Source: a virus. From it: DNA of 38,787 bases. How positions within the stretch are numbered: position 1 is the stretch's first letter; every line of letters begins with the position of its first letter. Under the pieces are notes generated by a model. That model was given only the letters and a program-made list of their open reading frames with translations. It searched no databases and was not told the origin of the DNA. Where the stretch lies: IMG/VR virus record IMGVR_UViG_3300028590_000050, positions 1 to 38,787 of that record; one strand, given 5' to 3'. The position numbers and the translations under genes are program-made. Positions 2,951-20,520 of this stretch are shown here, one piece after another.

Positions 2951-3231
2951 GCCAAGACACCCAGCCCGGCGAGCTGCCTCGCACGACCCGAATCATCGAC
3001 ATGAAGCTGCCGTTGCAGTGGCTGCTTGGTGTGGCCTTCGCCGTCGCCTGCTCGTTCGCGACGATGTACTTCAAGCTGGGGCAACTCGGCGAGGACATGA
3101 CCGAACTGAAGATCTCGGTGAAGGCGGGCAACGGCACTGCCGCGACGATTCAGGGTGAGCTTGCCATCCTGAAATTCCGCATTGAGAACCTTGAGCATGA
3201 GAAGCGCGCTGCGACGGGGGGTGTCCGATGA
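2947..3231 (+). CDS. Small membrane protein of the lysis cassette
   Basis: 94 residues with one strong membrane span (about residues 24-40, WLLGVAFAVACSFATMYF) and a following amphipathic, probably coiled-coil segment rich in Leu, Glu and Lys (LGQLGEDMTELKIS, LAILKFRIENLEHEK). It is start/stop coupled to the tail fibre before it (ATGA) and to the endolysin after it. The position and topology suit a holin, an antiholin or a spanin-like protein. I cannot choose among these from the sequence alone. Confidence 0.75.
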   Translation: MSQDTQPGELPRTTRIIDMKLPLQWLLGVAFAVACSFATMYFKLGQLGEDMTELKISVKAGNGTAATIQGELAILKFRIENLEHEKRAATGGVR

Positions 3232-3713
3232 ACTTCGATCAGGCTTTTGACCGGCTCATCGGTCATGAGGGTGGCTACGCGAATAGCCCCTCCGACCCTG
3301 GCGGCGAAACCATGTGGGGCGTCACCAAGAATGTCGCCCGCGCCAATGGCTACGAAGGCTCGATGATGAACCTGCCGCGCGACACCGCGAAGGCGATCTA
3401 CCGCAAACAGTATTGGGACGCCATCCAGGCCGACAAGCTTCCCGAAACCCTGCGGTTCCATGTGTTCGATGCAGCGGTCAACTCGGGAACCAAGCAGGCT
3501 GTGAAGTGGCTGCAGCGCCTCGCAGGCGTCGCTGACGATGGCGTGATAGGCCCGATGACCATTGCTGCTGCCGGTCGCCTAGACGGCTTCTCTGCAGCGG
3601 CGCAATACAGCGGTATTCGCCTCGATTTCATGACGAGCCTGCCCACGTGGGGAGCGTTCGGACGTGGCTGGTCACGTCGTATTGCCTCCAACCTCCAGCA
3701 CATCAAGGACTGA
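3228..3713 (+). CDS. Endolysin, glycoside hydrolase family 108 type
   Basis: 161 residues. The N-terminal motif GHEGGYANSPSDPGG (residues 12-26) places the catalytic glutamate at position 14 in the HEGGY context typical of GH108 muramidases, followed by TMWGVT. The C-terminal half (VKWLQRLAGVADDGVIGPMT) has the pattern of the peptidoglycan-binding domain that accompanies this family. It cleaves the cell-wall glycan at the end of infection. There is no signal peptide or SAR segment, so release depends on a holin, and a holin candidate follows immediately. The start overlaps the preceding stop by 4 nt. Confidence 0.92.
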   Translation: MNFDQAFDRLIGHEGGYANSPSDPGGETMWGVTKNVARANGYEGSMMNLPRDTAKAIYRKQYWDAIQADKLPETLRFHVFDAAVNSGTKQAVKWLQRLAGVADDGVIGPMTIAAAGRLDGFSAAAQYSGIRLDFMTSLPTWGAFGRGWSRRIASNLQHIKD

Positions 3714-4463: not shown

Positions 4464-4530
4464 GGTTGTTTTCGATGAGATACCTTTGCCCTATCACGCT
4501 CCGTCCTGCAGCCCGCATGGATGCTAGGTG

Positions 4531-4561
4531 CGGTAGGAATGCGGTGTGAATTCGGTATGAA
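4531..4561 (+). repeat. Three tandem arm-type repeats, 11-bp period
   Basis: CGGTAGGAA, CGGTGTGAA and CGGTATGAA start at 4531, 4542 and 4553, exactly 11 bases (about one helical turn) apart. They end two bases before the integrase stop codon. This corresponds to the P'1-P'2-P'3 array of lambda attP. Confidence 0.65.
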
Positions 4562-15986: not shown

Positions 15987-16223
15987 ATGACGAATACGTT
16001 GACCGACGCCATGGTGGCAGACATGGATGAATGCGCCGACTTCATGCACCAGCAGCCTCCCTTCGTCTTCCCACCCTCGGGCATCAAGCACGAGCGCGCC
16101 CCCAAGGTGGTGCGTCTCAAGGGCCTGCAGCCCATCGTCCGCCACGGTATCCCGGTGGTTGGGCGCGAGCAGGGCCAGGCTGACGCGCACCGTCGTGACG
16201 CCATCAAGCGGGGTGGGATCTGA
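15987..16223 (+). CDS. Hypothetical protein (78 aa)
   Basis: 78 residues with AAAGGAG before the ATG. N-terminal acidic part (ADMDECADFMHQQPPFVFPP) followed by a basic part (KHERAPKVVRLKGLQPIVRH). No family recognised. Its stop overlaps the probable CTG start of the replication gene, which suggests that translation of the latter depends on it. Confidence 0.65.
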   Translation: MTNTLTDAMVADMDECADFMHQQPPFVFPPSGIKHERAPKVVRLKGLQPIVRHGIPVVGREQGQADAHRRDAIKRGGI

Positions 16224-17221
16224 ACTTCTACCCGCATCACATCGGGGACTACCTCACTGCTACGGCGCATCTGTCGTGGCAGGAGGACTGCGCTTATCGC
16301 CGTCTGCTGGATGTGTACTACAGCCGAGAGCAAGCGCTCCCCTGTGAGATCGCTCAAGCCTGCCGCTTGGTGCGCGCCACGGCTAAGGATGAACGCAAGG
16401 CAGTCGAAACCGTGCTCACCGAGTTCTTCACGCTGACGGATGCAGGCTGGACGCATGCACGTTGTGAGGCTGAGATTTCAAAGGCAGCAGGGATCGCAGA
16501 GCGTGCCCGTGAAAACGGAAAGCTCGGCGGCAACCCATACAAGAAGCAGCAATACAACGAGCCTGGCTTTCTCTACGCACTCGACATTGGCGGCGCGATC
16601 AAAGTCGGCATCACAAAGAACCCGCAGCAGCGCCTTTACGAGCACCGCCGCAAGTTCAAGGGATGCCAGTACTTCCTAGTGGTCAGTGTTCCGGATATGG
16701 GGAAGTGTGAAGACGACACGCTCCGCGCATTCGCATCTGTCGCTGTGGGCGAAAGGCTCAATCTGGCACCCGACCGCTGGCATGAGCTGGCAGCCCACAT
16801 GGAGAGTTTGGGCACCCCAGCAGGCTCCCCAAACAAAGGCGGTGGGCTCCCTCCCAATCCCAATCCCATTACCAATTATTCAGAACCTAACGGTTCTGGC
16901 GGCAAGCCGCCGATGTCGCCCGACGAGATCATTTTTGGCTACGGGGTTCCGCTGCTGGTCAACGCGGGCTCCACCGACAAAGCCGCTCGCTCGTTTCTCG
17001 GCGGTCTGCGCAAGGGCCACGGTGGTGATGCCGTTGTCGATGCCTTGCGGAACTGCCTTCGTGAAAAGCCGCTGCAGCCGCTCGAATGGCTCGCCGCCGC
17101 TCTGCCGCCCCACGGGGCCAAGTCCACCAAGCCCAACGCACAGGAGGCGCTTGAAGCCGCCAACCGTGCCGTTGGCGAACGTTTCCTTGCTGAACAGGAG
17201 GCCGCTCGTGCATCCCACTGA
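16220..17221 (+). CDS. DUF1376 replication protein with inserted GIY-YIG-like domain
   Basis: 333 residues if read from the CTG at 16220. Residues 2-30 (NFYPHHIGDYLTATAHLSW, then EDCAYRRLLDVYYS) are the hallmark of DUF1376 phage replication-associated proteins. No ATG, GTG or TTG lies in frame between the upstream stop at 16196 and this motif, so the start is probably CTG, overlapping the previous stop. The first ATG, at 16313, would cut off the conserved motif. Residues about 114-195 form a separate module: PGFLYALDIGGAIKVGITKN and QQRLYEHRRKF resemble the GIY-YIG-related T5orf172/MUG113 family. After it comes the usual low-complexity linker (LPPNPNPITN) and a C-terminal helical part (PDEIIFGYGVPLLVNAGST, LRNCLREKPLQPLEWLAAAL). 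Probably acts in replication initiation with the next gene. Confidence 0.78.
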   Translation: MNFYPHHIGDYLTATAHLSWQEDCAYRRLLDVYYSREQALPCEIAQACRLVRATAKDERKAVETVLTEFFTLTDAGWTHARCEAEISKAAGIAERARENGKLGGNPYKKQQYNEPGFLYALDIGGAIKVGITKNPQQRLYEHRRKFKGCQYFLVVSVPDMGKCEDDTLRAFASVAVGERLNLAPDRWHELAAHMESLGTPAGSPNKGGGLPPNPNPITNYSEPNGSGGKPPMSPDEIIFGYGVPLLVNAGSTDKAARSFLGGLRKGHGGDAVVDALRNCLREKPLQPLEWLAAALPPHGAKSTKPNAQEALEAANRAVGERFLAEQEAARASH

Positions 17222-17870
17222 CCATCCCGCGCTCGTGTCGCTCGTGACCGATGCGCTCGCCTACTACCGCCAGCCGGTGTCCACCTTCACGCTGCAGGTA
17301 TGGCTGCAAGCCTGCCAGCCGTTCTCCATGGAGCAGGTGACGAAGGCCATGTCAGCGCATGCGACCGATCCTGAGCACGGTCAGTTCGCGCCGAAGGTTG
17401 CGGACATCATCCGCATCTTGCAGGGCACGCACACAGACCGCGCGCAGCTCGCATGGGGTAAGGCCCTGGAAGCGATGAGCAGCGTTGGTGCTTACACCGA
17501 TGTGATCTTCGATGACCCGGCCATCCATGCAGCGATTGAAGATCTTGGTGGGTGGCCGAAGGTGTGCCGCACCGAAACCAAGGAACTGAGCTACCTGCAA
17601 CATCGCTTCTGCGAGTCGCACAAGGCCTACACCGGTCGCGGCCAATTCGAGTACCCCCGCCGCCTTGCTGGCGACCGCTCGCCGGATTCCGAGTACGAGA
17701 AGAAGGGGTTGAAGCCGCCTCGCCCTGCCGTTGTCGGCGACCCTGATCGCTGCAAGCTGGTCTATCGCGGCGGCAATGCTGCTGGCAAGACGGCCATTGG
17801 CTTCGCGTCCTTCGCCGAACTGGCCTCCGCCAGCGTCATGCGCCGCATCGAAACGGTAGGTGAAGCATGA
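17208..17870 (+). CDS. DUF6475-like replication partner (220 aa)
   Basis: 220 residues from the GTG preceded by AGGAGG at ideal spacing; longer frames upstream are shadows of the previous gene. N-terminal HPALVSLVTDALAYYRQPVS and WLQACQPFSMEQVTKAMSAH, followed by DPEHGQFAPKVADIIRILQG, are features I associate with phage replication proteins found beside DUF1376 genes. In function it may be a helicase loader or origin-binding factor. The C-terminal part has RFCESHKAYTGRG and a basic end. It overlaps the previous gene by 14 nt. Confidence 0.72.
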   Translation: MHPTDHPALVSLVTDALAYYRQPVSTFTLQVWLQACQPFSMEQVTKAMSAHATDPEHGQFAPKVADIIRILQGTHTDRAQLAWGKALEAMSSVGAYTDVIFDDPAIHAAIEDLGGWPKVCRTETKELSYLQHRFCESHKAYTGRGQFEYPRRLAGDRSPDSEYEKKGLKPPRPAVVGDPDRCKLVYRGGNAAGKTAIGFASFAELASASVMRRIETVGEA

Positions 17871-19700: not shown

Positions 19701-20032
19701 CTCCTGATCTTCGCGACCCCAACAAGGCGGCTGACTACATCATCGCCAACGCTGGCAAGTTTGCCGCAGCAAAGGCTCAGCGTGTCTACCTGGAGGAATT
19801 CAGGAAGTCGAAGAAAGCCATTCTGATGGGCCAGAGCACCGCCAAGGCTGCGGTGGAGCGGGAGCAGTACGCCTATGCCCATGAGGACTATCTGGCGCTG
19901 CTGGGCGGCCTGAAGGCGTCTATCGAGGTGGAAGAGAAGCTGCGCTGGGACTTGATTGCGGCTCAGGCCCGGATCGAGATCTGGCGCACGCAAGAAGCGA
20001 GCAACCGCGCGCAGGATCGGAGCATGCGATGA
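19697..20032 (+). CDS. Conserved phage early protein (111 aa)
   Basis: 111 residues from a GTG after GGGAGG. Starts VTPDLRDPNKAADYIIANAG and is almost fully helical (AYAHEDYLALLGGLKASIEV, then IAAQARIEIWRTQEASNRA). I recognise this as a conserved early protein of proteobacterial phages, usually located before ninG or an antiterminator, without known function. Confidence 0.75.
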   Translation: MTPDLRDPNKAADYIIANAGKFAAAKAQRVYLEEFRKSKKAILMGQSTAKAAVEREQYAYAHEDYLALLGGLKASIEVEEKLRWDLIAAQARIEIWRTQEASNRAQDRSMR

Positions 20033-20520
20033 GAGCGCCACTTCCATCAATCGAGAAGGTGAGAGAACTGCTCACGTATGACTCTGAAACGGGGCTGTTC
20101 CACGCGATAAAGCGTTCTGGCACTCGTATGCCTGGGGATCTCGCTGGAACAACACATTCCGCTGGGTATACGGCGATTCAGGTCGCAGGCCGATTGTGTT
20201 TTGCTCATCGATTGGCATGGTTCTATATGCATGGCGAATGGCCAACGGCTTGCATAGATCACATAGATGGGGATAGGAAAAACAATGCCATCGCGAACTT
20301 GAGATCGGTCGATCAGAGGACAAACAATCAGAACAAGCGAAGCGCGACATACAAATGCAAGGTCGGACTTCTCGGCGTCACTCCGCTAAATGGAAGATTC
20401 AGGGCCTCCATTGGTTTCAATAAACATAGCTTCCATCTTGGGATGTTTGACACTCCGGAAGAAGCCCATATGGCATACATCGAGAAGAAAAGAGAGCTTC
20501 ATGCGGGGTGCACGTTGTGA
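20029..20520 (+). CDS. HNH homing endonuclease with AP2-type domain
   Basis: 163 residues. N-terminal substrate-recognition part (ELLTYDSETGLFHAIKRSG), then the HNH nuclease core CIDHIDGDRKNNAIANLRSV with the catalytic His in DHIDGD and Asn in KNNAIANL, followed by RTNNQNK. The C-terminal part (GRFRASIGFNKHSFHLGMFD, then TPEEAHMAYIEKKRELH) is an AP2-type DNA-binding domain. This is the layout of free-standing phage homing endonucleases. The gene is visibly richer in A and T than its neighbours, a sign of transfer. It is fitted exactly between its neighbours by 4-nt overlaps. Confidence 0.9.
   Translation: MRAPLPSIEKVRELLTYDSETGLFHAIKRSGTRMPGDLAGTTHSAGYTAIQVAGRLCFAHRLAWFYMHGEWPTACIDHIDGDRKNNAIANLRSVDQRTNNQNKRSATYKCKVGLLGVTPLNGRFRASIGFNKHSFHLGMFDTPEEAHMAYIEKKRELHAGCTL

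Follow-up and report, generated by a model that had tools for sequence, protein, structure and literature searches.

A GIY-YIG domain at the iteron position of a DUF1376 phage initiator: a predicted variant of the origin-directed nucleases

In phage lambda, the replication origin lies inside the gene of the initiator O; its iterons are part of the DNA coding for the linker, which connects the origin-binding head of the protein to the C-terminus that recruits the helicase. I-TevI and other GIY-YIG homing endonucleases, in turn, consist of a small catalytic domain and a separate DNA-binding part that directs it. In Odn (Gp88) of Vibrio phage ICP1, a T5orf172 domain is combined with a RepA_N-like head. 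The enzyme cleaves the origins of PLE satellites, and cleavage depends on the iterons; the cuts are double-stranded, altered iterons escape them, and a change of E180 inactivates the enzyme (PMC8263062). Further T5orf172/RepA_N proteins occur in ICP1 (Gp5) and in coliphages, and T5orf172 genes are often of the homing type (PMC10448857).

Here we describe a fusion of a DUF1376 (YdaU-type) phage initiator with a GIY-YIG domain, encoded on a virus record of 38,787 bases (IMG/VR IMGVR_UViG_3300028590_000050), a single metagenomic contig that we will refer to as the window. ICP1 Odn is its closest precedent. Both proteins join T5orf172 to an initiator-type DNA-binding part, both have the catalytic arginine and glutamate, and in both cases the same head is found in rivals, together with iterons. 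However, the head belongs to DUF6945 in Odn and to DUF1376 in the window, and whereas Odn is a separate protein of 226 amino acids without an initiator C-terminus, which targets satellites and has its gene apart from the target, the window fusion is a full-length initiator encoded in the replication module of the phage itself, with the nuclease domain taking the position of the iterons. Because the initiator C-terminus is kept (it is shared with the closest relative, L002) and the gene stands in the initiator's place, the fusion was not assigned to the Odn family. Judged by its sequence, it follows the origin-directed nuclease design in a new form, with a predicted function. The likeness to lambda O concerns the iterons in linker DNA, here those of the insertion-free relatives; O has no nuclease domain, and the DUF1376 head is not known to be a homologue of O. 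With the I-TevI type the fusion shares the separate DNA-binding part and the existence of insertion-free alleles, but its domain belongs to no intron or intein and is fused in frame into a replication protein. A preliminary description of this locus was not aware of any described example. This stands for the DUF1376/GIY-YIG fusion, of which we found no description in the open-licence literature (an earlier account elsewhere is possible), but not for T5orf172 joined to an initiator-type DNA-binding domain, which is known (PMC8263062, PMC10448857).

The fusion gene and its nuclease domain

The gene, its main parts and its neighbour are located in the window as follows:

16220 to 17221, plus strand: fusion gene, with DUF1376 head, GIY-YIG (T5orf172) domain, linker and initiator-type C-terminus (open frame; Pfam; PHROG)
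16223 to 16477, plus strand: DUF1376 head, residues 2-86 (Pfam E 1.2e-29; 85-88% identity to the heads of L002, L003 and L029)
16565 to 16789, plus strand: GIY-YIG domain, residues about 116-190 (Pfam T5orf172; alignment with other T5orf172 domains)
17211 to 17870, plus strand: adjoining gene, DUF6475 protein (Pfam 5e-29; a relative with 38% identity lies beside a second GIY-YIG fusion)

The reading frame is open throughout and codes for 333 amino acids. It starts with a CTG codon that overlaps the stop codon (TGA) of the preceding open reading frame. The same CTGA junction is found at 16220 in the window and at 3001 in both L002 and L003. No suitably placed ATG, GTG or TTG could be detected at the start of the initiator gene in the window and L003, and from these sequences a CTG start is probably conserved in all three genes.

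The head matches PF07120, the family of the DUF1376 phage initiators (E 1.2e-29), and also 'primosomal protein' families of PHROG. A role of the fusion in replication is suggested by this label, by its position in the replication module and by the iterons in its relatives. Searches of the window proteins revealed no second replication initiator, so that the fusion gene is the only one recognised; the DUF6475 protein is likely its partner in the replication module. The cumulative GC skew has its minimum at 16-18 kb of the window, which is weakly compatible with a nearby origin. Other window genes code for an integrase, an HTH (CI-like) protein, a Cro-like repressor, an exonuclease and NinG, as well as for terminase, portal, major head, tail and DNA-ejection proteins. 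From this gene content, the window most likely represents a temperate tailed phage. The same early region as the fusion gene contains an HNH_3 + AP2 protein (20029-20520), a combination that has been named IPA-HNH homing endonuclease (PMC10448857). Beside the integrase gene, Tandem Repeats Finder detected three copies of an 11-bp direct repeat (TGCGGTATGAA, 4529-4561), possibly integrase arm sites.

The preliminary description had proposed a GIY-YIG-like domain of the T5orf172 type at residues 114-195, between the DUF1376 head and the linker. Our searches support all of this: in the whole protein, Pfam T5orf172 matches residues 117-173 with 21.5 bits, above the curated cut-off of 20 bits, and in a profile search with the domain alone the match reaches 24 bits (E 5.6e-5). 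PHROG endonuclease family 681 additionally matches residues 107-147 (E 3e-6). The proposed range was correct within a few residues, and the placement follows from the Pfam positions and from alignment with insertion-free relatives. Aligned with a set of T5orf172 domains, the insertion keeps the GIY-YIG core residues Y119, K128-V129-G130, R138, H142 (four residues past R138) and E164, and thus the conserved Y, (K/Y)xG, R and catalytic E of T5orf172; its YIG motif reads KVG, as in other domains of the family. The histidine that follows the glutamate in many of these domains (E..LH) is absent. By its place in the motif E164 is presumably equivalent to E180 of Odn, an equivalence that automatic alignment of the two proteins does not settle. 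BLASTP of the domain against Odn gave no alignment, and the T5orf172 profile is the sole link between them.

If the domain were a non-catalytic accessory, with a degenerate GIY-YIG fold serving for DNA contact only or as a spacer, the absent histidine and a Pfam score barely exceeding the cut-off would be understandable. However, Y119, R138, H142 and E164 are all kept, and R, E and the first Y recur at 30% identity in another insertion described below (L151), so that we consider this explanation quite improbable.

A search with the domain alone gave no close match in viral contigs, in plasmids or among 399 genomes of the family; phages yielded only weak matches (E 0.01 or worse). About 55 other T5orf172 domains are present in 369 genomes of the class, and none of those inspected belongs to a DUF1376 protein. 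Among solved structures there was no useful match for the whole protein, the head or the nuclease profile.

Insertion-free sister alleles and their iterons

The insert is not a general part of DUF1376 proteins, a comparison that the preliminary description had called for. When 134 of them were scanned one by one with Pfam, DUF1376 was found in all and T5orf172 in the window protein only. The head of L002 is 87% identical to that of the window and the C-terminus is the same, while the GIY-YIG domain is absent; L003 (85% in the head) and L029 (88%) lack it as well. Alignment of the DNA delimits the exchanged segment:

16532 to 16846, plus strand: segment standing in for about 95 bp that bear iterons in L002, the closest relative (DNA alignment)

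The shared flanks GGCGG and CTCCCAATCCCAATCCC enclose about 95 bp in L002 and about 315 bp in the window. An assembly chimera or sequencing artefact could be suspected, as the exact fusion is known from one metagenomic contig without a second copy. But the insertion is in frame at both ends, its GC and GC3 match the flanks, and an independent fusion of the same kind exists in a bacterial genome and its IMG/VR record, which makes an artefact barely credible.

The replaced DNA carries phased repeats. In L002 and L003, AACCCA occurs at gene positions 329, 340 and 351 and in a fourth copy, in 11-bp steps, within the stretch that matches the insertion. Phased AACCC pairs were also seen in L029-L032 and many further DUF1376 genes, and the linkers of all six closest heads (63-88% identity) contain phased AACCC arrays; the window contains none. 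Throughout its 38.8 kb there are no AACCC pairs spaced by 10, 11, 12 or 22 bp, and its best phased pair scores 9.9 bits, compared with 25-30 in L002, L003 and L030. More generally, chains of at least three exact 7-mers were found in the linkers of 91 of 175 insertion-free genes, as against 4 heads and 6 C-termini. The linker repeats of DUF1376 genes are therefore likely iterons of an origin inside the initiator gene, an arrangement for which we found no published account in this family. As individual examples, the linker of L107 has nine AACCC repeats in series (1819-1912), and the array of L002 lies at 3329-3378.

We also compared the repeats between relatives. Among insertion-free pairs with at least 70% head identity, which served as a control, 73-78% of comparisons show repeated 6-mers in common. 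The window has no iteron 6-mer in common with any of its four nearest heads, nor has L156, an HNH-bearing allele, with any of its four, although these comparisons are few and related to each other. Exact k-mer chains were discarded as a test of iteron loss, since 0 of 4 against 91 of 175 is too weak.

Downstream of the domain, three repeats were noted:

16806 to 16834, no strand: short inverted repeat GTTTGGG / CCCAAAC, past the domain (read from the sequence)
16852 to 16876, no strand: TCCCAA hexamer tract, shared with L002 (Tandem Repeats Finder; alignment)
16881 to 16898, no strand: perfect 7-bp inverted repeat with a 4-base loop, CAGAACC-TAAC-GGTTCTG (sequence comparison)

The first two are the sole candidates in the window for a remnant or new origin repeat. 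The third is perhaps part of an origin; relatives have it at the same place with other arms. Of 174 DUF1376 genes, 49 have an inverted repeat with a 4-base loop in the linker and 3 have one elsewhere. Perfect inverted repeats of 7-9 bp near the linker end are also present in L002, L003, L004, L029, L036, L156, L160, L166 and others, with TAAA, TAAC, TGAC or similar loops and arms that vary strongly in sequence and are always complementary.

Further nuclease insertions at the same junction

A second GIY-YIG insertion was found in L020, a genome of the Burkholderiales sample, and identically in the IMG/VR record L151. It lies at the same junction as in the window (T5orf172 E 1.1e-5), and the gene beside it is related to the DUF6475 gene of the window (38% identity). 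Its initiator head is a different one, with relatives such as the 'replisome organizer' of Bacteroides phage Versailles; a profile comparison did not support homology to DUF1376 (probability 1.4%). Identity between the two GIY-YIG insertions is no more than about 30%. The relatives L152-L155 have no GIY-YIG domain and carry copies of AACCCCCC/GGGGGGTT, none of which is present in L151, while CCCCCC repeats are retained there. Taken from these sequences, the GIY-YIG-in-initiator architecture is real, rare but recurrent.

The junction between head and linker has also received another nuclease. Domains of an HNH subfamily are inserted there in the DUF1376 proteins L027, L156, L239 and L245, in the Lin1244_N proteins L242 and L243, and in L240, whose head has no Pfam match, thus in three initiator types with insertion-free sister alleles. 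These share with the window fusion the junction and the insertion-free sisters, but the nuclease fold is different and phased repeats follow downstream of HNH. In L156, L239, L240, L242, L243, L245 and L027 these repeats are AAATGCCTGC-like and spaced by 11-12 bp; they resemble one another across different initiator heads, as though they moved together with the HNH domain.

Additionally, L250 and L242, which belongs to the same record as L249, have almost the same DNA on either side of the HNH/iteron segment but differ within it. The initiator genes of L249, L250 and L251 are nearly identical and differ only in the arm end and the iteron segment: the iterons are of type TGCAATGCA in L250 and TACGAACGTA in L251, and L249 has HNH and other repeats. 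By sequence comparison, the origin segments of these three were swapped as a unit. Thus, for the window fusion we see insertion-free alleles and the loss of an iteron array, but iterons also change in nuclease-free alleles. A strict rule that a nuclease means no repeats was rejected, as the HNH alleles and L151 keep some phased repeats and the nuclease-free L250 and L251 swap iterons too.

These observations bear on two proposals of the preliminary description, namely that the domain nicks the origin or is a captured homing element. As a class, an origin-directed or homing nuclease is the best explanation. Nicking of the own origin is less favoured because the relatives' iterons at that place are missing from the window. 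If the domain nicked or bound its own origin, helping to unwind it or to switch to rolling-circle replication, it would have taken over or modified origin recognition; the complete initiator architecture, the unchanged operon position and the similar phased repeats directly past HNH in alleles with three different heads would agree with this. We nevertheless regard it as unlikely, as no clear iteron array remains in the window, the nuclease-free sisters manage without the domain, and Odn cuts both strands (PMC8263062). A selfish cassette that spreads by cutting insertion-free initiator alleles, neutral or slightly harmful to the phage, would explain why sister alleles exist with and without the insert and why the presumed target segment was removed by it; T5orf172 genes are, moreover, frequently of the homing type (PMC10448857). 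But with two GIY-YIG insertions only about 30% identical, and with neither phages nor plasmids nor viral contigs containing close copies, signs of a recent spread are missing, and we consider such a cassette unlikely as well.

A possible nuclease against rival iterons

We tentatively favour the possibility, which falls short of being probable, that the fusion is an initiator-guided, origin-directed nuclease against rival alleles that bear iterons. Its DUF1376 head and arm would have kept the ability to recognise related phages' iterons, which lie within the initiator gene of those rivals, and the nuclease domain would cut at these iterons or close by. Relatives that co-infect the cell or already reside in it would be disabled in this way, and the carrier would escape, its own iteron segment having been replaced by the insertion. 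Since the broken site would be allelic to the insertion, repair could also transfer the nuclease allele to the rival, which amounts to homing. We infer here the DNA binding by head and arm, the cutting, its target, the self-immunity and the carrier's present start of replication.

Several observations that can be read from the sequences count for an origin-directed nuclease: the T5orf172 match above the cut-off with Y119, R138, H142 and E164; the insertion-free sisters, including L002 with the same C-terminus; the arrays in the six closest heads and their loss in the window; L151 without its sisters' AACCCCCC/GGGGGGTT copies; and the recurrent architecture, with HNH at the same junction in three initiator types. 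The 73-78% sharing in the control, against none for the window, and the precedent of Odn, with iteron-dependent cuts and escape by altered iterons, point in the same direction. On the other side, the iterons of L250 and L251 differ without a nuclease, so that array loss is not specific to nuclease alleles; L151 has its CCCCCC repeats and the HNH alleles their AAATGCCTGC-like ones; and a pure weapon would not need the complete C-terminus that is kept. Overall, a nuclease directed against rival iterons is compatible with the pattern but not proven by it.

Iteron turnover in nuclease-free alleles, together with repeats in nuclease alleles, suggests a swappable origin cassette of which nucleases are one kind. 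It is conceivable, though rather doubtful, that phage initiators in general hold such a cassette between head and C-terminus, filled either with iteron arrays or with nucleases (GIY-YIG, HNH) against rival iterons, that initiators repeatedly became weapons, and that this conflict drives fast turnover of origins.

The origin-directed nucleases known so far, from ICP1 and a small number of coliphages, are stand-alone proteins directed against satellites. New here are nucleases of two families inside phage initiators, at the place of the iterons, and the fusion protein of the window may cut the origins of rival viruses. This leads to the testable claim that nuclease and iteron alleles compete at one locus, pushing origins to diversify. 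Furthermore, DUF1376 genes as self-contained units of initiator plus origin would help to map origins in many phages.
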